A stretch of 64,000 nucleotides of DNA, taken from contig LJZR01000025.1 of the NCBI GenBank assembly GCA_001314865.1, forward strand, positions 1 to 64,000, in the 5' to 3' direction. This document shows, piece after piece, positions 53,063 through 60,585 of this stretch (position 1 is the first letter of the stretch; the number at the start of each line of letters is the position of its first letter). The notes beneath the pieces were generated by a model. That model was not told the origin of the DNA, did not search any database, and worked only from the letters and a program-made list of their open reading frames with translations. The position numbers were made by a program, and so were the translations under genes. Origin of the DNA: Phormidesmis priestleyi Ana (GTDB lineage: Bacteria; Cyanobacteriota; Cyanobacteriia; Phormidesmidales; Phormidesmidaceae).

Positions 53063-53184
53063 ACAACTCATATGTAACAGAATCCAGAAAGATTTGGATT
53101 TCAGAAGATTGGCATCCGCCCTTTTGACCGAATTGAAAGCGCCCAACAGACATTCTCTAAGCAAGAACAACACAATACTAAACT

Positions 53185-53340
53185 GTTTTAATCCTGACAT
53201 TGCCAGTGCCCAGTTCACCGATACAACATAATAAACGGTGCCAGGTATCGGATCTCGCAAAGCCCCTTGGCTGCGTTAAAACAGAGGTCAAAATAAATAT
53301 TTACAGAGGGCTGAACCGCTTATAGGTTACAGTTCACAAG
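53185..53340. repeat. flanking repeat copy A, downstream of TIR-NACHT-GUN4
   Basis: It shares with 55965-56135 the order GTGCCAGGnATCGGATC, AAAGCCC-TTGGCT, GTnAAAAC, GGnnGAnTnAACCGCTTA and TnACAGTTnACAA. It covers the 3' end and trailer of the gene ending at 53327. It is evidence for duplication of the locus. Confidence 0.75.
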
Positions 53341-55834
53341 TCTGGATGCGAGAGACGAGACCACAACTCCACACAAATGCCCGTAAAATCCCTCCCCCCA
53401 ACGGGGATGCGCCCGTAGGAAGGTGTCCCCGCAAAATCGTATCGTATCGTATCTTCCTATTCCACCCGTTAATTTCACAAAGTTTATTCCATGCCTTAAT
53501 ATCATACCGACCATTTGGAACGCCGCCGCATTCTTCCACATACATTTTTTTCTGAACGCTGAAGCCAAACTTTCCGCCGCTATGCTTCACCCATAGCCCA
53601 TCAATCGCCCTCAGCGGCTCGCAAGGAAAGTTCAGCAGGTCTTCACGCTCAAACCACTGCCCCTCTTCCTTGCCAACTTCCGTAATCATCAGCCGGTAAG
53701 TTTCATTATCGGCTTCTTTCCACTGCCCATTCTTTAGGTAGCGCTCCAGGTCAGCGTAGCGAGCATCGTTCACTTGCTCAGCGACCTCTGAAAACGTGAT
53801 GTGTGAGCCTTTAGACCCAGCGTTCGTGATCTGGCGAAACTCAGCTTTCACCTCATCTATTTGCTTCCGCGTCTCTTGTATGCAGTTATAAGCAAGCGTG
53901 AATTCCTTTTGGCTCATCGCCTCACGAATCAGTTTTGTCGGATTCACCAGCCCTGCATACAGCAAAATCGTCGGCTTCCACCAGTCCTCTTGCAAATGCT
54001 CATACAGCAATGCTTCTCGCTCCGGCTTAGCCGCCACATACGCTGCTGCCAAATACTCCTGAAAACTCAAATGCGCAAACTCATACTCATCTTCTTGCTG
54101 CACAATTAGCTCACTCACCTCCACCACAGGCTCTAAAAAATCTCTCGCTCCCAGCGTTTCTTCCTGCTCTGCCAACGCCTCGCCAACATATTGCAACAGC
54201 GTATGTTGCTCTACTCTCTCCAGCTTTTGTAGCATCATTTCAAACGCTACTCGCTGTAATACCGTTTGCGCCTCGCACTGCGTTAGCAAAGTCTCTAACC
54301 GACGCGCCCTGGGACGATCTCTAAGCTGTAACTGACAAATCTCTCGATACAGCTCCACCCGACGCTTGGGCAAATCCGCCCCTTCATACCGCCGATGAAA
54401 CGTCACAATCATATTCAATAGCAGCGGATTTTTTGCCAGGGCTCTTAGCGCTTGCTGCGCTTCAATTTGCGCTAGCAAATCTTGTGAAAATTCAGCTGCC
54501 CGCTTCTTCACATCTGGCGTATCTCGCCCCGCGTTTGCATATCGCTCTTGGCACCCATACCACCGGGTCACAAAGTCTTGGCGCTGTTCGCGATCAAAGT
54601 CTTTTACCCATAGCGAAGAAGCCAGCACCAGCCGGTTAGCCGCGTCTTGGTCTTGGTAAGCCTTGGGCCGAGAGGTCACCACAAACACCGACTCGCCATA
54701 CTGTTGCATTTGTTCATTGAGCCATTTTGCAATGGCGGGCCGCTGTGCCTTTGCCACTTCATCAAAGCCGTCGAACATCACTAAGGCTCTGCCGCTTCTG
54801 AGCACATCTTTTGCCCAGTCAGCCGGAACCGCCAAATCGCTGGCACCGGCTAACTTTGGCACATGGTACTCACCTATTAGCGCTGGCAAACTCGGCGGAT
54901 TTTCCTGCGCCAACAGTTCCCGATGCTTGCGCAACACCAGCAAAAAAGGCACCATTTGGGGCACATTTTTTTCCGGTTGCTTCGTGCCCATGCGATAGGC
55001 AATATGCTTCAGCAGCGTTGTTTTGCCATAGCCACCCCAAGCCAAAACCGCCAACTGCCGAAACGTAGTTTCACGCTCCGCCTTCGCCAAAAAATCCCAA
55101 ATGCTATAACTGTGCGGCATTTCTGCCATATCCTCAGCCGACAGCCGCTTGTCCGATAGCCGCTTGGCAATCCGTCCAAATCCAGGCGAGCTAGCACTCA
55201 AATCTAGCGCCAACGGCACAAACACATCCCTCAGCAAAGGCACAAAAATGCCTACATGCTGCACCGATCCCTCTGGTCGCAACGCCTGACAATCCGCCGC
55301 CTGACAAGCCAAGTACTGATCTTCAAAGCTAGTCGCCGTTTCTACCGCTCTACTGGTAACGATGGGCTCTAATGACTTTTCTTTACTGGCAGCCGCCCTA
55401 GCCGCATCTGACTCACCATTGGGCCTAATTCCTGTAATGCCCCACACTAGCCTGCCAAAGGGATCGGGCATTTGCCGCCGAAAATCAACCCAGGTTTTAC
55501 CCTTCAGAAAAGTCGGCAGCGCTGGTTCTTGGGGTGCGTTGCCTAGCAATACTGGAATCACCGGGCAGCCGCGCTCTACAAACTCCCGCAAAAACGCTTT
55601 GATTTCCTGCTGTTGCCAGGGGCCAAGTCCTGCATTGCCTACAAAAACAGCAGCTGTCTGAATCTGTTCTATTTGTCCGTCTAAAGCATCCTGCCAGTCT
55701 AACCCAGGCCGTAATTCCCATTCATCTAGCCAAGGCTTAATGCCCTGCGCTTGCAGTTGCTCAGCAATTTTAATGACAGCCGACTTATCTTCACTGTTAT
55801 GACACAAGAAAACGTCAAATCTCTGGTCGGCCAT
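53327..55834 (-). CDS. TIR-NACHT-GUN4 protein, putative NLR-like immune sensor
   Basis: 835 aa. Residues 5-140 are a TIR domain starting FDVFLCHNSEDKSAV, with Glu77 in the GPWQQQE motif at the catalytic position of NAD-cleaving TIRs. Residues 255-600 are a NACHT-type STAND NTPase: Walker A GGYGKTT (267-273), Walker B LVMFDGFDE (351-359), VVTSRPKAY (395-403) and the terminal FAHLSFQEYLAA (586-597). Residues 690-806 are a GUN4 domain (RYADLERYLKNGQWKEAD...GKFGFSVQ...), a tetrapyrrole-binding fold known from Mg-chelatase control. The last 30 residues look like out-of-frame tail. The likely scheme is sensor, oligomerising switch and NADase effector; this role is inferred. It shares its TIR type with the gene at 58536 and its GUN4 with the gene at 56103. 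Confidence 0.88.
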   Translation of the reverse strand: MADQRFDVFLCHNSEDKSAVIKIAEQLQAQGIKPWLDEWELRPGLDWQDALDGQIEQIQTAAVFVGNAGLGPWQQQEIKAFLREFVERGCPVIPVLLGNAPQEPALPTFLKGKTWVDFRRQMPDPFGRLVWGITGIRPNGESDAARAAASKEKSLEPIVTSRAVETATSFEDQYLACQAADCQALRPEGSVQHVGIFVPLLRDVFVPLALDLSASSPGFGRIAKRLSDKRLSAEDMAEMPHSYSIWDFLAKAERETTFRQLAVLAWGGYGKTTLLKHIAYRMGTKQPEKNVPQMVPFLLVLRKHRELLAQENPPSLPALIGEYHVPKLAGASDLAVPADWAKDVLRSGRALVMFDGFDEVAKAQRPAIAKWLNEQMQQYGESVFVVTSRPKAYQDQDAANRLVLASSLWVKDFDREQRQDFVTRWYGCQERYANAGRDTPDVKKRAAEFSQDLLAQIEAQQALRALAKNPLLLNMIVTFHRRYEGADLPKRRVELYREICQLQLRDRPRARRLETLLTQCEAQTVLQRVAFEMMLQKLERVEQHTLLQYVGEALAEQEETLGARDFLEPVVEVSELIVQQEDEYEFAHLSFQEYLAAAYVAAKPEREALLYEHLQEDWWKPTILLYAGLVNPTKLIREAMSQKEFTLAYNCIQETRKQIDEVKAEFRQITNAGSKGSHITFSEVAEQVNDARYADLERYLKNGQWKEADNETYRLMITEVGKEEGQWFEREDLLNFPCEPLRAIDGLWVKHSGGKFGFSVQKKMYVEECGGVPNGRYDIKAWNKLCEINGWNRKIRYDTILRGHLPTGASPLGGGILRAFVWSCGLVSRIQTCEL

Positions 55835-55964
55835 CTATCGCTCCGTCACGTCAGCCATTTCTGCGAATGCATTGCTGCATTGTACTCAATTCCTTTGCAG
55901 CCCTTCTAACTTATTCCGCACAGTTAGCTTACAGATTCAACCTAACTATAGAAATGCACCAGCC

Positions 55965-56135
55965 AACTGTCTTGCCCCCGATATTGCCGCCGCGCAGTTC
56001 TCAGATGCGACTTACGATCAGTGCCAGGGATCGGATCGTCAAAAGCCCTTTGGCTTCGTCAAAACGGCGATCGCAATAAAAGCTCAAGGAAGACTAAACC
56101 GCTTACAGATCACAGTTTACAACTCTACATACGAG
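55965..56135. repeat. flanking repeat copy B, downstream of TIR-GUN4
   Basis: Matches copy A at 53185-53340 through the trailer and stop region of the gene ending at 56103. Copy B contains a HIP1-like GCGATCGC where copy A does not. Confidence 0.75.
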
Positions 56136-57194
56136 AGAAGAGAAAGCAGAGTAAAAGGTCGTTTGAGTCGGTTTTTCCACAAACATGATAATTGGGAATT
56201 GATTTTGAAAAATCTTTGAAAGATCACAATGAGGCAAGTGTCCTATAGGCGATGACACATCAAACCTAACTGATGATACATACGTTCCTTTCACCTGCCA
56301 ACCGTTAGCCTCGCAGAACTTGTCCCAAGCCTCTTCATGGTAACTACCATCGGCCACACCACCGCAGTCCAAATACAGCTTTGTCTGCACACTAAACCCA
56401 AACTTACCATTGCTATATCTCACCCATAGCTCATCTATCACCCGCAGCGGCTTACAAGGAAAGTTCAGCAAGGCTTTTGGGTCACACCACTGCCCCTCAT
56501 CCTTATCCACTTCCGTAACCATCAGCCGGTAAGTTTCATCGTCTGCTTCCTTCCACTGCCCATTCTTTAGGTAGCGATCTAGGTCAGCGTAGCGAGCATC
56601 AATCGGTTTGGTGGGAATGGCTCCATTAATCGGTTTAGACGGGGGTTGTTTAACCCGTTGTGCTTGTAGCGCTGCAAGCTCTTGCCGCAAAGCATTCAGC
56701 TCGTCTTCTGTTTCGAGTGATTCCCAGGTTACTTTTTCTTGCAGAGGAACGGTACTAGCTACATTCAAGGGGTCAGAAGCTGTAACAGTATCTGGCAATA
56801 CCGACCCACTTACGATAGATGCGCTTAATGCCCTAAAGAATCGATCAGGGGGGAGCATACCCCCTTTTACATCAACCACTTGAAGTCGAGAAACGCTGAA
56901 CCACCGTTCACCTTCCAACAATAACGGAAATATCGGCTTCTTTATTTCCAAAGCGAAACTGAGTTCACACTGAACCCAGTGAGAGTCGTAAGAGCGCGGC
57001 GTCATCACCAGCACAAAAACCTGACACGCCCTTAAGTGCTTTTCGATCTCCCGCTGCCACGCTGCACCATAATCAATCCGGTCATCTAGCCATACAGACA
57101 ACCCTCGCGCTTCAAAAGCACTGATCAAGCTCTTAACATAGCCCTGATCCTCACGGCTATAGCTCATAAAAATAGGATGTGACGCATCAGGCAT
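56103..57194 (-). CDS. TIR-GUN4 protein
   Basis: 363 aa. Residues 6-130 are a TIR domain of a different subtype from its neighbours (PIFMSYSREDQGYVKSL), with Glu77 in SHWVQCE at the catalytic position. A short coiled coil follows (about 163-181, EDELNALRQELAALQAQR), then a Pro/Lys linker. The GUN4 domain (198-321) is nearly identical over its first 35 residues to that of the adjacent TIR-NACHT-GUN4 gene. The tail to 363 is poorly conserved. Without a NTPase domain, signal transfer would have to go through the coiled coil. It is same-strand with the neighbours: 95 bp after the HigA-like gene and 268 bp before the next TIR gene. Confidence 0.87.
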   Translation of the reverse strand: MPDASHPIFMSYSREDQGYVKSLISAFEARGLSVWLDDRIDYGAAWQREIEKHLRACQVFVLVMTPRSYDSHWVQCELSFALEIKKPIFPLLLEGERWFSVSRLQVVDVKGGMLPPDRFFRALSASIVSGSVLPDTVTASDPLNVASTVPLQEKVTWESLETEDELNALRQELAALQAQRVKQPPSKPINGAIPTKPIDARYADLDRYLKNGQWKEADDETYRLMVTEVDKDEGQWCDPKALLNFPCKPLRVIDELWVRYSNGKFGFSVQTKLYLDCGGVADGSYHEEAWDKFCEANGWQVKGTYVSSVRFDVSSPIGHLPHCDLSKIFQNQFPIIMFVEKPTQTTFYSAFSSLVCRVVNCDL

Positions 57195-57289
57195 TATTAA
57201 TCAAGTCCCTTATTCCTCCGTCACTCTCGCAATCTTCGCCAATGCACTGAAAGGCGACTCCAAATTAGCTATCCTTTTTTCCCAGACAA

Positions 57290-57655
57290 CTAGGACTCTT
57301 GCTGAGGGGTTGCAATTACAGTGGCGCAGCCTTTCGACGGACTCGCAACCGTTTCCACATTCAACTTCAAACCGAGCGCACTTATCACCTTAAAAATAGT
57401 ATCAAACGTAAGACTGCGTTCTCCCGACAGAGCCTTATACAAACTTTCACGCGATAACCCCGAATCTCGTGCCACCTGAGCCATTCCCTTCGACCGAGCA
57501 ATATCGCCCAAAGCCTTAGCAATCAAAGCAGCATCCCCCGCCGCCTCTTCAATACTGGCTTCCAAATAAGCCGCCATTTCCTCCGGTGTCCGCAGGTGTT
57601 CTGCTACGTCGTATGGCGTTGTAATTGTCTTTGTCACAAGGCAAGGCGTCATCAT
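57290..57655 (-). CDS. HigA/HI1420-type antitoxin-like DNA-binding protein
   Basis: About 121 aa from the ATG at 57655. It contains TTPYDVAEHLRTPEEMAAYLEASIEEA and then a helix-turn-helix (MAQVARDSGLSRESLYKALSGERSLTFDTIFKVISALGLKLNVE). This is the 'probable addiction module antidote' pattern, normally paired with a RelE/HigB toxin. No such toxin gene lies next to it. It starts 7 bp after the HicB-like gene stop, so the pair is co-translated. It may serve as repressor for the TIR cluster. The longer frame to 57703 overlaps the upstream gene and is unlikely. Confidence 0.85.
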   Translation of the reverse strand: MMTPCLVTKTITTPYDVAEHLRTPEEMAAYLEASIEEAAGDAALIAKALGDIARSKGMAQVARDSGLSRESLYKALSGERSLTFDTIFKVISALGLKLNVETVASPSKGCATVIATPQQES

Positions 57656-57662
57656 GTTGTAA

Positions 57663-57911
57663 CTAAGCCACGTTGCTATCCACTGACAAACTATCCATTG
57701 CAAACACTTTTGGCTCAGGAAGGGGTATACCGTCTTCTTGAAGCCAAGAAATCATAGACTCAATTACATCTCTACCTTGGCTAGCCGCTGCCTCATAGGT
57801 CTCGCCATCGGTGCAGGGCTGCATAAAATAACGCTCAAAGTCGGGCACATAAACGACATAGCACTCATCTTCGGCAGACCACTGGATGACCATGCTGTAC
57901 TGCGGTTTCAT
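57663..57911 (-). CDS. HicB-like antitoxin
   Basis: 82 aa. SMVIQWSAEDECYVVYVPDFERYFMQPCTDGETYEAAASQGRDVIESMISWLQEDG is the partial RNase H-like HicB fold. AAGGAGG sits just before the ATG at 57911, a strong ribosome-binding site. HicB normally neutralises the HicA mRNA nuclease, but no HicA-sized frame is adjacent. A lone HicB-like protein in an operon with a HigA-like one suggests a regulatory pair or the relic of a toxin-antitoxin locus. Confidence 0.87.
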   Translation of the reverse strand: MKPQYSMVIQWSAEDECYVVYVPDFERYFMQPCTDGETYEAAASQGRDVIESMISWLQEDGIPLPEPKVFAMDSLSVDSNVA

Positions 57912-57932
57912 CGTTATTCCTCCTTGTTGCCT

Positions 57933-58430
57933 TTAGTCATTTACGCCCGCGATCGCACCCAAAGCATCCGCATACTGCGCCAAATCCTTTCTAAGCGCGT
58001 CCAACTCTCCCCGGACAATCATCTCCTTATCCCAAGCCTTTTCATGCGCTTGCGGACTCATTCCCGTTGGCTTTTGCCCCTCCCACTCCTGCAACAGCGG
58101 ATGCCATTTAGCCAAAAACGGGCGTAGGCCATTGTTGAGCACTGCGATCGCAATTCCCCCCACCGAATCATGCGACGCACCCACATCCGGCCCCGCCTTC
58201 CGCAAAATCTCCCGCGTAGAGCCAAACAAGCTATACAGCGAATTCATCGCCTCTCGCACCAACCCCTCCTGCGGATTCAAACTCTGCACCGCCACCCGCG
58301 TCACCAGCTCCACATATAGCTCCCAAGCCGCATTCCGCTCAGTCGGGTCAACCTCCCAAGACGCAGAACCAATGCCAAAAGGCAGGCTGACAGTAACCTT
58401 TTTCAGTACAGCAGGATTATGTTTTGGCAT
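57933..58430 (-). CDS. conserved hypothetical protein in the TIR island
   Basis: 165 aa from the ATG at 58430 (MPKHNPAVL); an in-frame TTG at 58454 is an alternative. It is mostly helical: WEVDPTERNAAWELYVELVTRVAVQ, LVREAMNSLYSLFGSTREILRKAGPDVG, SVGGIAIAVLNNGLRPFLAKWHPLLQEWE and ELDALRKDLAQYADALGAIAGV. Conserved-looking Trp and Gly residues suggest a real family. I recall similar sequences as unnamed bacterial proteins but know no function. It is 21 bp upstream of the HicB-like gene and same-strand with all TIR genes, so it is probably part of the same transcription unit. Confidence 0.75.
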   Translation of the reverse strand: MPKHNPAVLKKVTVSLPFGIGSASWEVDPTERNAAWELYVELVTRVAVQSLNPQEGLVREAMNSLYSLFGSTREILRKAGPDVGASHDSVGGIAIAVLNNGLRPFLAKWHPLLQEWEGQKPTGMSPQAHEKAWDKEMIVRGELDALRKDLAQYADALGAIAGVND

Positions 58431-58535
58431 GAGTTTGAACAAAAATGCGGTCAATTTGCCTTAATTATAGGGTGATTGTCCCATAAATTGGAAAGCGCCT
58501 AATTCGCCGCAAACTTAGTGACAAGCACAGCCGTC

Positions 58536-59954
58536 TCACTCGCCAAATTTTCTATGCAAGAAATCCAAAGTTTTCCTCTCTCTCAATTTACAGACTGCAC
58601 TACGATGAGCAAATGCACCAGAAAACCAGTGAGCCTGTTCTCTCGGGAAAGTTTTAATCCATTTTATACGGACAACCCATTCCGATAGCTCTACGCTATC
58701 ACTATTTTTATGCAGCCCATCCGACTTAAGATCCATTTCAAGCAACGGTACGTTTTGTGGCCCTACGCTGAACTCCTGAATTAGAACCGCTTTCTCTATA
58801 ACAGAGCCAAAGCCAACGTAGCCCGAACCACCTATATAAGCGTAAACCGTGCTGCCAACCTCCAGCTTTTTTATGGCATTTGCAAATCGGGCACCTTGCC
58901 CCGCACTCATGAATTCATACCGCACGCAATCCTCCCATGCCCGCTGCCCGTTGCCCTCTCCTACGTTAACAAACCAATCTCCCGCCCATCCAAATTCTTC
59001 GCGCAAGAACTCTAATGTCGCTTTATTTGTGAGTTTACAGGCAATGTTTTGATTCGCAAATGCACCAACAAACCGACGCGCTTGCTCTTTGGGAAAAGTT
59101 TTAAGCCACTTAACCCCAACAACCCATTCTGAAAGAGCTAAATTATCACTGTTTGCTCCAGGGTATTTGGCTTGTAGCTCTACTTCAAGTAGCGGTGTTT
59201 TCTCTGACCCTACAGTAAAATCCTTAATAGGAATCGCCTTTTGGATGACTTTGCCTAAGCCAACATAGCCCAACCCAGCCATGTATGCATATATAGTGCT
59301 ACCAATTTCTAGTTTCTTTAATGAACCTGAATATCTCACCCCTTGTCCAGCACTTATAAAACCGTACTTTACGCAATCCGCCCATGTTCTGGTTTCTCCC
59401 TCACCTACATGAACAAACCAATCTCCGACCCACTCTAATTTTTTAGTCTCTGTAGTTATTGAATCGGGTTTGATAGTTATTGGATTGGCTTTTATAGTTG
59501 TTGGGTCAGGTATAGTAATTATTGGGTCATCAATAATTGCTTTCCGCTCCCCGGTTATACCCCAAATTAACTGACTGAAGGGATTTGGACTTTGAGAGCG
59601 AAAATCCACCCAAGTTTTTCCTTTGAGAAATAGGGGTAATTTGGGTATTTTTGGTGCAGAGTTCAAAAGCACAGGAATTATGGGGCAGTTTTGATCATTA
59701 AACTCCCTCAAAAATGCTTTTAATTCTTGCTTTTGCCACGGGCCTAAGCCATTGTTACCGATAAAGATAGCAGCTGAATTGATTTGCCCGATTTGATCTT
59801 CTAGGATGTCTTGCCATTCAAAACCGGGACGCAATTCCCATTCATCAAGCCAAGGTTTTATATTTTGAGCTTTTAACTGAGCTGCAATTTCTTTGATAGC
59901 TGGTTTATCCTCACTGTTGTGACATAAAAACACATCAAACTGTTGATTCGCCAT
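58536..59954 (-). CDS. TIR protein with two PUA/EVE-like domains
   Basis: 472 aa from the ATG at 59954 (MANQQFDVF). The TIR domain (5-140) is very close to that of TIR-NACHT-GUN4, with Glu77 in GPWQKQE. A threonine/isoleucine/proline linker (140-172) consists of imperfect repeats. Two homologous domains follow at 174-321 and 322-472. Each begins W-GDWFV-VGEG, then W-DC-Y-F-SAGQG-R, LKKLE-GSTIYAY, GYVG-G-VI and EWVV--KW-KTF. The pattern resembles the EVE/PUA-like folds that read modified nucleic acid bases, so nucleic-acid sensing is a plausible trigger. That assignment is by pattern only. It is first in the island's gene order. Confidence 0.8.
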   Translation of the reverse strand: MANQQFDVFLCHNSEDKPAIKEIAAQLKAQNIKPWLDEWELRPGFEWQDILEDQIGQINSAAIFIGNNGLGPWQKQELKAFLREFNDQNCPIIPVLLNSAPKIPKLPLFLKGKTWVDFRSQSPNPFSQLIWGITGERKAIIDDPIITIPDPTTIKANPITIKPDSITTETKKLEWVGDWFVHVGEGETRTWADCVKYGFISAGQGVRYSGSLKKLEIGSTIYAYMAGLGYVGLGKVIQKAIPIKDFTVGSEKTPLLEVELQAKYPGANSDNLALSEWVVGVKWLKTFPKEQARRFVGAFANQNIACKLTNKATLEFLREEFGWAGDWFVNVGEGNGQRAWEDCVRYEFMSAGQGARFANAIKKLEVGSTVYAYIGGSGYVGFGSVIEKAVLIQEFSVGPQNVPLLEMDLKSDGLHKNSDSVELSEWVVRIKWIKTFPREQAHWFSGAFAHRSAVCKLRERKTLDFLHRKFGE

Positions 59955-60267: not shown

Positions 60268-60585
60268 CCTTACCAGTTAGCTGCTAACCAGTAAGCAAAA
60301 GCTGTAAACGCCTACTAGTTAGCTCTTAACCAGTAAGCAAAAGCTCTTAACCAGTAAGCAAAAGCTACTAACGCTTACTAGTTAGCTCTTAACCTGTAAG
60401 CAAAAGCTCTTAACCTGTAAGCAAAAGCTCTTAACCAGTAAGCAAAAGCTCTTAACCAGTAAGCAAAAGCTCTTAACCAGTAAGCAAAAGCTCTTAACCA
60501 GTAAGCGAAAGCTCTTAACTAGTAAGCAAAAGCTCTTAACGCTTATAGGTTAGTTGCTAACTAGTAAACGTAGCTTATGAATGCT
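60268..60585. repeat. 21-bp tandem array, about ten copies
   Basis: The unit contains GCTCTTAACCAGTAAGCAAA with a period of 21 bp, counted from GCT positions 60427, 60448 and 60469. Ten occurrences of GCTCTTAAC lie between 60322 and 60540, with inverted fragments (GCTTACTAGTTAGC) interspersed. There are no unique spacers, so this is not CRISPR. Confidence 0.93.

Follow-up and report, generated by a model that had tools for sequence, protein, structure and literature searches.

Hypervariable C-terminal tails and a constant DNA element in cyanobacterial GUN4 fusion genes

The TIR gene cluster

The 64,000-nt stretch analyzed here (positions 1 to 64,000 of contig LJZR01000025.1 of the cyanobacterium Phormidesmis priestleyi Ana; hereafter, the window) encodes three TIR proteins on one strand, P1, P2, and P3. 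Their arrangements, TIR-NACHT-GUN4, TIR-GUN4, and TIR-EVE-EVE, had been read from the letters alone in an initial annotation and were confirmed by Pfam and structure matches. In P1 and P2, the GUN4 domain is followed by a variable DNA tract that encodes the end of the protein, and then by a constant DNA element in which the open reading frame (ORF) stops; remnants of a convergent transposase of the RAYT type lie beyond. The features concerned are as follows.

53327–55834, minus strand: P1, TIR + NACHT + GUN4, 835 amino acids (Pfam)
53359–53416, minus strand: P1 variable tract, 58 nt, G/T-rich
53237–53360, minus strand: P1 constant element (R1 match, E 2.1e-24), with its core at 53358–53328, overlapping the 3' end of the ORF
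53320–53568, minus strand: overlapping frame that reads the constant DNA of P1 as ...SSLASRLVNCNL; P1's own frame reads ...LVSRIQTCEL
53157–53228, plus strand: degraded convergent RAYT transposase, of which 24 C-terminal codons remain (E 1.7e-6)
56103–57194, minus strand: P2, TIR + GUN4, 363 amino acids (Pfam, Foldseek)
56142–56231, minus strand: P2 variable tract, 90 nt, A/T-rich (atypical, the usual kind being G/T-rich)
56020–56143, minus strand: P2 constant element (R1 match, E 4.4e-19), with its core at 56141–56111
55962–56012, plus strand: degraded convergent RAYT transposase, of which 17 C-terminal codons remain (E 4.0e-4)
58536–59954, minus strand: P3, TIR + two EVE/YTH-like (PDC-S11) domains, 474 amino acids (ATG at 59954, frame open to 59960; Pfam, PADLOC, structure model)

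The profile search proposed in the initial annotation recovered TIR_2, NACHT, and GUN4. P1 scored 93.3 bits for TIR_2, 51.1 for NACHT (cut-off 26.7), and 87.5 for GUN4; P2 scored 80.2 bits for TIR_2 and 103.2 for GUN4; and P3 scored 86.1 bits for TIR_2, its Pfam matches being to TIR families only. Foldseek also recovered both folds of P2, with the GUN4 part resembling 7e2r, 1z3y, and 4xkb and the TIR part resembling the TIR domain of SARM1. The glutamate at residue 77 in a W-x-x-x-E context was present in all three TIR domains as annotated (W73-xxx-E77), and this residue is, from its sequence context, the putative NADase residue. P1 alone of the three has a NACHT NTPase between the effector and sensor domains, in a STAND/NLR-like layout. 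P1 and P3 share 70% identity in their TIR domains and have unrelated C-terminal parts, so that the shuffling is plain within the locus itself. The operon-like order that had been described holds as an order, but orf4 and a pair of antitoxin genes lie between P3 and P2, and the transposase remnants follow P2 and P1. In L060 and L085, a TIR protein with two tandem GUN4 domains was observed.

A constant element behind GUN4 genes

The fused genes have three recurrent C-termini, SLASRLVNC, LFSRIETC, and LLSHPDL, which are the three frames of one DNA motif; P1 shows two frames at once, its own and the overlapping one listed above. The constant element is ~125 bp long, has a strong core of ~37 bp, and caps the ORF in whichever of the three frames arrives. 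Among the first 61 cores extracted, 29 have a second conserved block (...CCGTTACCTGGCACC) at a fixed distance of 106–107 bp, and conservation is weak in the middle of the element. A structured RNA was rejected for lack of an Rfam match in the nine loci given and of consensus RNA pairing on the strand tested.

The element was found only in cyanobacteria and nearly always behind GUN4 genes. When one genome each for 84,980 species was scanned, the exact core occurred in 35 stretches, all in records titled as cyanobacteria (the genera include Nodosilinea, Leptolyngbya, Halomicronema, Stenomitos, Crocosphaera, Microcystis, and Dolichospermum). The exact core was absent from viral contigs, and P2 had no match in phage records. 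A GUN4 tblastn match lay just upstream in 30 of the 35 stretches with two queries, and with 88 GUN4 queries, the only distinct cores without an upstream match were L136 at 1458 and L148, neither of which came from the exact-core scan. A model of the element found 39 places in 15 genomes, with a GUN4 ORF at seven of the eight loci inspected and none at L148; with filters that lose weak matches, the element was present in 41 of 116 cyanobacterial genomes. The window's genome has only two copies, both at GUN4 genes. The core was absent from L241 (one of the near-identical Tolypothrix/Microchaete plasmids H11–H13) and from two Stanieria plasmid loci. Among the 65 complete element genes (of 105), the partner was NACHT in 28, TIR_2 in 16, a protein kinase in 8, a caspase in 8, and FGE-sulfatase in 3. 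At L197 (G002:C1:2034000-2049500), four GUN4 genes form an array that ends with a RAYT gene; two GUN4 domains occur in one of the four, and the two members checked are kinase-GUN4 genes.

Composition and openness of the variable tract

The variable tract lies after GHLP, at the end of the GUN4 domain, and before the element core, and it encodes the last ~15–40 residues as a hypervariable tail. We collected 105 distinct tracts (ORF reaching or near the core, GHLP-like motif, 10–150 nt, duplicates removed), in which G+T was 0.756; the GUN4 parts of these genes had 0.517 (paired Wilcoxon test, p 2e-18). The composition switches abruptly at GHLP, the preceding 60 nt having G.19, T.28, A.27, and C.26, and same-base dinucleotides are over-represented in the tracts (1.14–1.27). 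Tract lengths ranged from 11 to 90 nt in a set of 67 tracts, and the length modulo 3 was distributed as 35/36/34 among the 105.

The reading frame stays open across nearly all tracts. Among 113 distinct cores with up to 7 mismatches and >150 nt of upstream sequence, most of them fetched via GUN4 searches, 111 had a GUN4 match ≤200 nt upstream, and the GUN4 frame was open to the core in 110 of these 111 loci (about 46 expected). In-frame stops occurred in 1/111, against 64.5 ± 4.7 in 300 shuffles of the same stretches (minimum 51), whereas the other two frames had stops in 57 and 61 of 111, indicating that selection keeps the actual frame open and not the other two. The tail appears to be selected for translation. 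The one locus with a stop, L197 at 12452, belongs to an array and has a frameshift. The data did not support selection that would keep all three frames open, as off-frame stops (68/134) were close to the shuffled value (74.8 ± 4.7), in addition to the counts above. We also rejected copying of the core start into the tracts, since a copy of at least 7 bases occurred in only 3/105 tracts (shuffled mean 0.5, maximum 3). The tract of L257, outside the 105, does contain a partial duplicate of the core start.

Turnover of the tract between paralogs

Between tandem paralogs, tract windows were 0–71% identical with many gaps, whereas flanking windows were about 79–100% identical. For L250 and L257 of genome G066, the identity of 50-bp windows was 79–98% before the tract, fell to 50% and then 0% at the tract, and returned to 95–100% after it. 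In the G002 array, tract windows were 31–71% identical with gaps, the windows before them mostly 81–96%, and those directly after them 79–100%. In 58 pairs with an effector identity of 70–95%, which are not independent of one another, mean tract identity by bin was 0.47–0.51, compared with 0.444 ± 0.097 for random tract pairs, and the same pairs had identities of 0.77–0.85 in the GUN4 5' part and 0.64–0.82 in the core and untranslated region (UTR); one pair with decayed cores, L104/L119, kept a tract identity of 0.92. Identity was uniform along the gene in L104/L119 and in L101/L113, which lacks the element. In P1 and P2 themselves, the first ~90 nt of GUN4 are, by eye, ~90% identical; the two genes diverge in the tract and are alike again in the element.

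A convergent RAYT transposase

The GUN4 gene is often followed downstream by a RAYT-type Y1/HUH transposase (Pfam Y1_Tnp) that faces it, and both His residues, the Tyr, and the NP are invariant in the 9 intact copies aligned. In Nodosilinea nodulosa PCC 7104 (L237), which carries the element, the RAYT aligned over 255 amino acids. Among genes with at least 900 bp of downstream sequence, RAYT ORFs or fragments, including some weak matches, lay within 1.5 kb of 22 of the 62 element genes, convergently in 21, compared with 0/30 canonical gun4 genes and 1/19 GUN4 genes without the element (22/62 vs 1/49, Fisher p 8e-6). In the same 116 genomes as above, RAYT was found at 1e-20 in 20: in 18/41 with the element and in 2/75 without it (p 4e-8). 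By hand count, 22 of the 25 RAYT places outside the divergent genome G141 lay within about 1.4 kb of an element. RAYT is therefore statistically associated with the element. Two further observations concern these transposases. On L247, a Cylindrospermopsis curvispora plasmid, an annotated transposase (Y1_Tnp) lies 90 bp from a GUN4 gene and converges on it, and the record has six places that match P2. G141, of the single-GUN4 family f20, lacks the element and has more distantly related RAYTs at 14 places, which may have expanded separately.

Pigment-binding residues of the fused GUN4 domains

Fusions of GUN4 to kinase, caspase, trypsin, and TIR domains were listed by Kaur et al. (2020; PMC7159879), who proposed tetrapyrrole sensing (this and the other cited papers are represented here by excerpts). 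The suspicion voiced in the initial annotation that GUN4-signaling fusions were already known was thus right, and the porphyrin or bilin switch that it had offered as a new kind of trigger was already in print. Bilin binding depends on the residue equivalent to Asn211 of LxNxLR, whereas porphyrin binding does not, according to Rockwell and Lagarias (2023; PMC10156173), who used the Chlamydomonas mutant N219G, a GUN4 that keeps porphyrin binding; the residue is lost across the whole paralog clade of that study. F196 and R214 contribute to porphyrin affinity, as tested with Arabidopsis F191 and R211 (PMC8967248), and the mutations in the two papers lowered porphyrin affinity 2- to 12-fold.

We aligned 119 GUN4 domains, comprising 31 canonical and 88 others (most, not all, in fusions). 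F196 (Syn numbering), N211, and R214 were all kept in 31/31 canonical domains, a set defined by N-x-[LIVM]-R-[GA]-V that presupposes N211 and R214, so that F196 is the independent test. Of the 88 others, 2 had F, 3 had N, and 1 had R; no domain had all three, and 82 had none of them. LxNxLR followed GHLP in 30/31 canonical domains and in 0/88 others, where domains without a G[HE][LF]P motif were not searchable. It is absent from both P2 (GHLPHCDLSK) and P1 (GHLPTGASPL), and the hypervariable tract starts in the very loop that carries N211 and R214. The window's genome retains a normal Gun4 (L001). The initial annotation was right about the domains, the shuffling, and the putative NADase glutamate, and its sensing model is weakened by the loss of the three residues in most domains outside canonical Gun4. 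Given the 2- to 12-fold drop in affinity of the tested mutants and the porphyrin binding of N219G GUN4, the fused GUN4 domains may still bind porphyrin weakly.

P3 and the neighboring genes

The remaining features of the cluster are as follows.

58986–59453, minus strand: P3 EVE-like domain 1 (repeat comparison, structure model)
58539–58997, minus strand: P3 EVE-like domain 2, 56% identical to domain 1
57933–58454, minus strand: orf4, 173 amino acids, without a Pfam, PADLOC, or NCBIfam family
57663–57911, minus strand: HicB-like antitoxin (weak Pfam match, below cut-off)
57290–57703, minus strand: HI1420-type addiction-module antidote (family match)

The C-terminal half of P3 consists of two copies of the domain of PADLOC PDC-S11 (338 bits), which has no Pfam family; it is the C-terminal domain of PDC-S11 that corresponds to the repeated domain. 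The fusion partner in relatives is a NucS-like nuclease in L240, a Klebsiella plasmid, and GmrSD in L038, from a cyanobacterium, whereas it is TIR in P3. In a structure prediction of one copy, the best of five models had a pLDDT of 71.7 and a pTM of 0.72 (the other four had pLDDT 34–66), and it resembled PH1033 (Z 10.6), VcaM4I (9.8), and YTHDF2 (9.7) and also matched THYN1 in Foldseek. These matches of a predicted model support the earlier label "PUA/EVE-like"; we take PH1033, THYN1, and 2eve to be EVE proteins. The P3 domain had no match in viral contigs and no sequence match in PDB. In P3, a TIR of the same kind as in P1 and P2 is joined to a fixed, predicted EVE/YTH-like reader that would probably recognize modified nucleic acid.

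Eight other loci (L036, L039, L044, L053, L060, L082, L090, and L217) have an orf4 homologue (66–85% identity) close to TIR genes; by coordinates, it lies upstream of the TIR gene and on its strand in 7/8, and orf4 is a candidate TIR partner. No adjoining toxin was recognized beside the two antitoxin genes (57290–57911, minus strand). A tandem array of a 21-bp unit in 10.5 copies, also read as a 63-bp unit, lies upstream of P3 at 60285–60540. A small ORF convergent with P1 (52643–53062, plus strand) resembles, by eye, an ORF near the TIR-GUN4 gene of L090 (5583–5996).

Explanations for the variable tail

We consider it somewhat probable that P1 and P2 belong to a large set of cyanobacterial proteins that join TIR, NACHT, kinase, or caspase, as effector or switch, to a C-terminal GUN4 domain whose hypervariable tail is a diversified recognition part, perhaps renewed by RAYT. 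This reading builds on the turnover of the tract between conserved flanks, its frame-free length, and the near-absence of in-frame stops, together with the near-restriction of the element to GUN4 genes, the association with RAYT, and the loss of known tetrapyrrole-binding residues. The tail, placed beside the old pigment cleft, would bind variable targets, probably derived from phages or other intruders, and binding would let the TIR, NACHT, or kinase part act, which for TIR would mean NAD cleavage and growth arrest. Most speculatively, RAYT, in cis or in trans, would cut at the junction of tract and core, and resealing after G/T-rich, apparently donor-less synthesis would yield a new tail. 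In one explicit form of this last step, which we regard as rather unlikely, a domesticated RAYT cuts the GUN4/core junction and stays covalently on the 5' end of the core, the free 3'-OH gains untemplated G/T-rich nucleotides, and the ends are rejoined, giving tails of random length and frame without a reverse transcriptase or stored cassettes.

Several observations weigh against the recognition-tail reading. No variation of the tract within a strain was observed among one genome per species, and the tail had a pLDDT of <50 in an AlphaFold model, giving no sign of binding. The P2 tract is A/T-rich and forms an exception to the general composition. The unbiased set for the restriction to GUN4 genes is the 35 exact-core stretches, and L104/L105, with decayed cores and no RAYT, still drop to 65–56% identity in the tail, contrary to a strict link. 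No RAYT ORF lies within 1.5 kb of 40 of the 62 element genes, and the window's genome (136 contigs) has no RAYT at 1e-20, only the C-terminal remnants after P1 and P2, so that RAYT may be a passenger or may act in trans or intermittently. Tracts next to an intact RAYT showed no clear rise in G+T (0.803, n 18, vs 0.742, n 52; p 0.10). A causal part of RAYT in tail renewal is something that we infer, and any role of the element proteins in defense is a putative one. A table of phage-resistant cyanobacterial substrains in PMC10811720 lists, among others, a GUN4/kinase gene for one substrain, which is circumstantial. As no intact RAYT was found in the window's genome, the tails of P1 and P2 are probably no longer being renewed.

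The tract and element could instead be the scar of a RAYT-type element inserted behind an ancestral GUN4 module, at its 3' end, and now be evolving passively as linker and UTR; the frequent degradation of RAYT, including the remnants in the window, and the weak conservation in the middle of the element fit such an origin. We think this unlikely, in view of the in-frame stops (1/111 vs 64.5 expected), the replacement of the tract between flanks that stay about 80–100% identical, and the abrupt switch of base composition at GHLP. A somewhat lower probability still is given to a tetrapyrrole-gated switch, in which TIR or NACHT is activated when the fused GUN4 detects porphyrin, bilin, or the state of photosynthesis. 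The GUN4 fold is clear, the hypothesis is published (PMC7159879), and N219G GUN4 keeps porphyrin binding; in contrast, F196 (31/31 canonical domains vs 2/88 others) and LxNxLR (30/31 vs 0/88) are largely lost, and the loss of Asn211 in an entire paralog clade is also reported in PMC10156173.

Slippage in a G-rich repeat that switches among the three alternative C-termini would account for the G runs, the three ends, and the GATAC x3 repeat of P1 at 53453–53436, and internal repeats in the tracts are indeed above shuffled values (longest repeated substring 6.8 vs 6.1 ± 0.12). Such phase variation is nevertheless very improbable: unlike slippage products, tracts from paralogs that are nearly identical align no better than chance; a shift into the other two frames, with stops in 57 and 61 of 111, would often truncate the protein; and no Tandem Repeats Finder array was found in the P1 or P2 tract, nor does a tandem repeat explain the length change. 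Pilin antigenic variation operates by gene conversion from stored cassettes, and a similar process, perhaps triggered by a G-quadruplex, would suit the G-rich tract; the GUN4 5' part common to the unlike effectors P1 and P2 shows that module exchange does occur. We hold this to be equally doubtful. A tract of G002, in a single-contig assembly, matches itself only and has no match in two sister genomes, a tract of G060 has no second copy in its own genome, and the ten shared 16-mers printed trace to two tract pairs only, of which one is low-complexity and the other is L104/L119. The canonical G-quadruplex motif occurs in 15/105 tracts compared with 9.8 ± 2.4 after shuffling, an excess so mild that a G-quadruplex trigger was set aside.

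Comparison with known systems

The variable proteins of diversity-generating retroelements (DGRs) in cyanobacteria (PMC7517822; Kaur et al. 2020, PMC7159879) likewise have a C-terminal hypervariable segment beside constant DNA in the same phylum and include kinase, caspase, or TIR proteins, and 3/65 element genes match FGE-sulfatase. However, the domain here is GUN4 and not a C-type lectin, and the length and frame of the tract are free, whereas DGRs substitute adenines at constant length. RVT_1 was present in 11/16 element assemblies, including 6 matches in the window's genome, but was not found in 5/16, two of which (G324 and G318) have an intact RAYT, indicating that a DGR reverse transcriptase is not generally required, while one may still play a part in the window's genome. 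No template-like copy was found in the window's genome or for two tracts tested elsewhere, although a strongly mutated template could escape such a search. A DGR as the general mechanism is disfavored by the assemblies without reverse transcriptase and by the missing template.

The GUN4 paralogs and fusions described in cyanobacteria (PMC10156173; PMC7159879) share the domain, the loss of LxNxLR, and the partner domains. The GUN4 part of the PADLOC PD-T4-6 model PDLC04062 (kinase + GUN4) matches P1 and P2, which have no kinase. With the RAYT/TnpA_REP HUH transposases (PMC6006769), the intact relatives share the Y1_Tnp domain, the HuH motif, and the class-2 signature Y---NP, whereas the ones here stand 3' of GUN4 fusion genes, beside a 125-bp element without consensus pairing on the strand tested. 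The open PMC literature on GUN4 fusions and RAYTs, in the excerpts covered (subscription papers and preprints lie outside this scope), describes no hypervariable tail, frame-free element, or transposase link.

V(D)J recombination combines the RAG transposase with untemplated N-addition by TdT. By analogy only, the immune-like GUN4 genes also have a transposase-like enzyme beside a junction of random sequence and free length; here, however, there is one junction with one strand bias, and no recombination of segments was seen. To our knowledge, proteins are diversified in bacteria via reverse transcriptase, stored cassettes, site-specific inversion, or repeat slippage. The hypervariable tail and its constant element hint at a new bacterial way to diversify immune-like proteins. 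If this is true, this group of RAYTs would have a possible job, the role of the fused GUN4 domains would be recognition rather than pigment sensing, and these cyanobacterial genes would provide a tractable bacterial system for receptor diversification.

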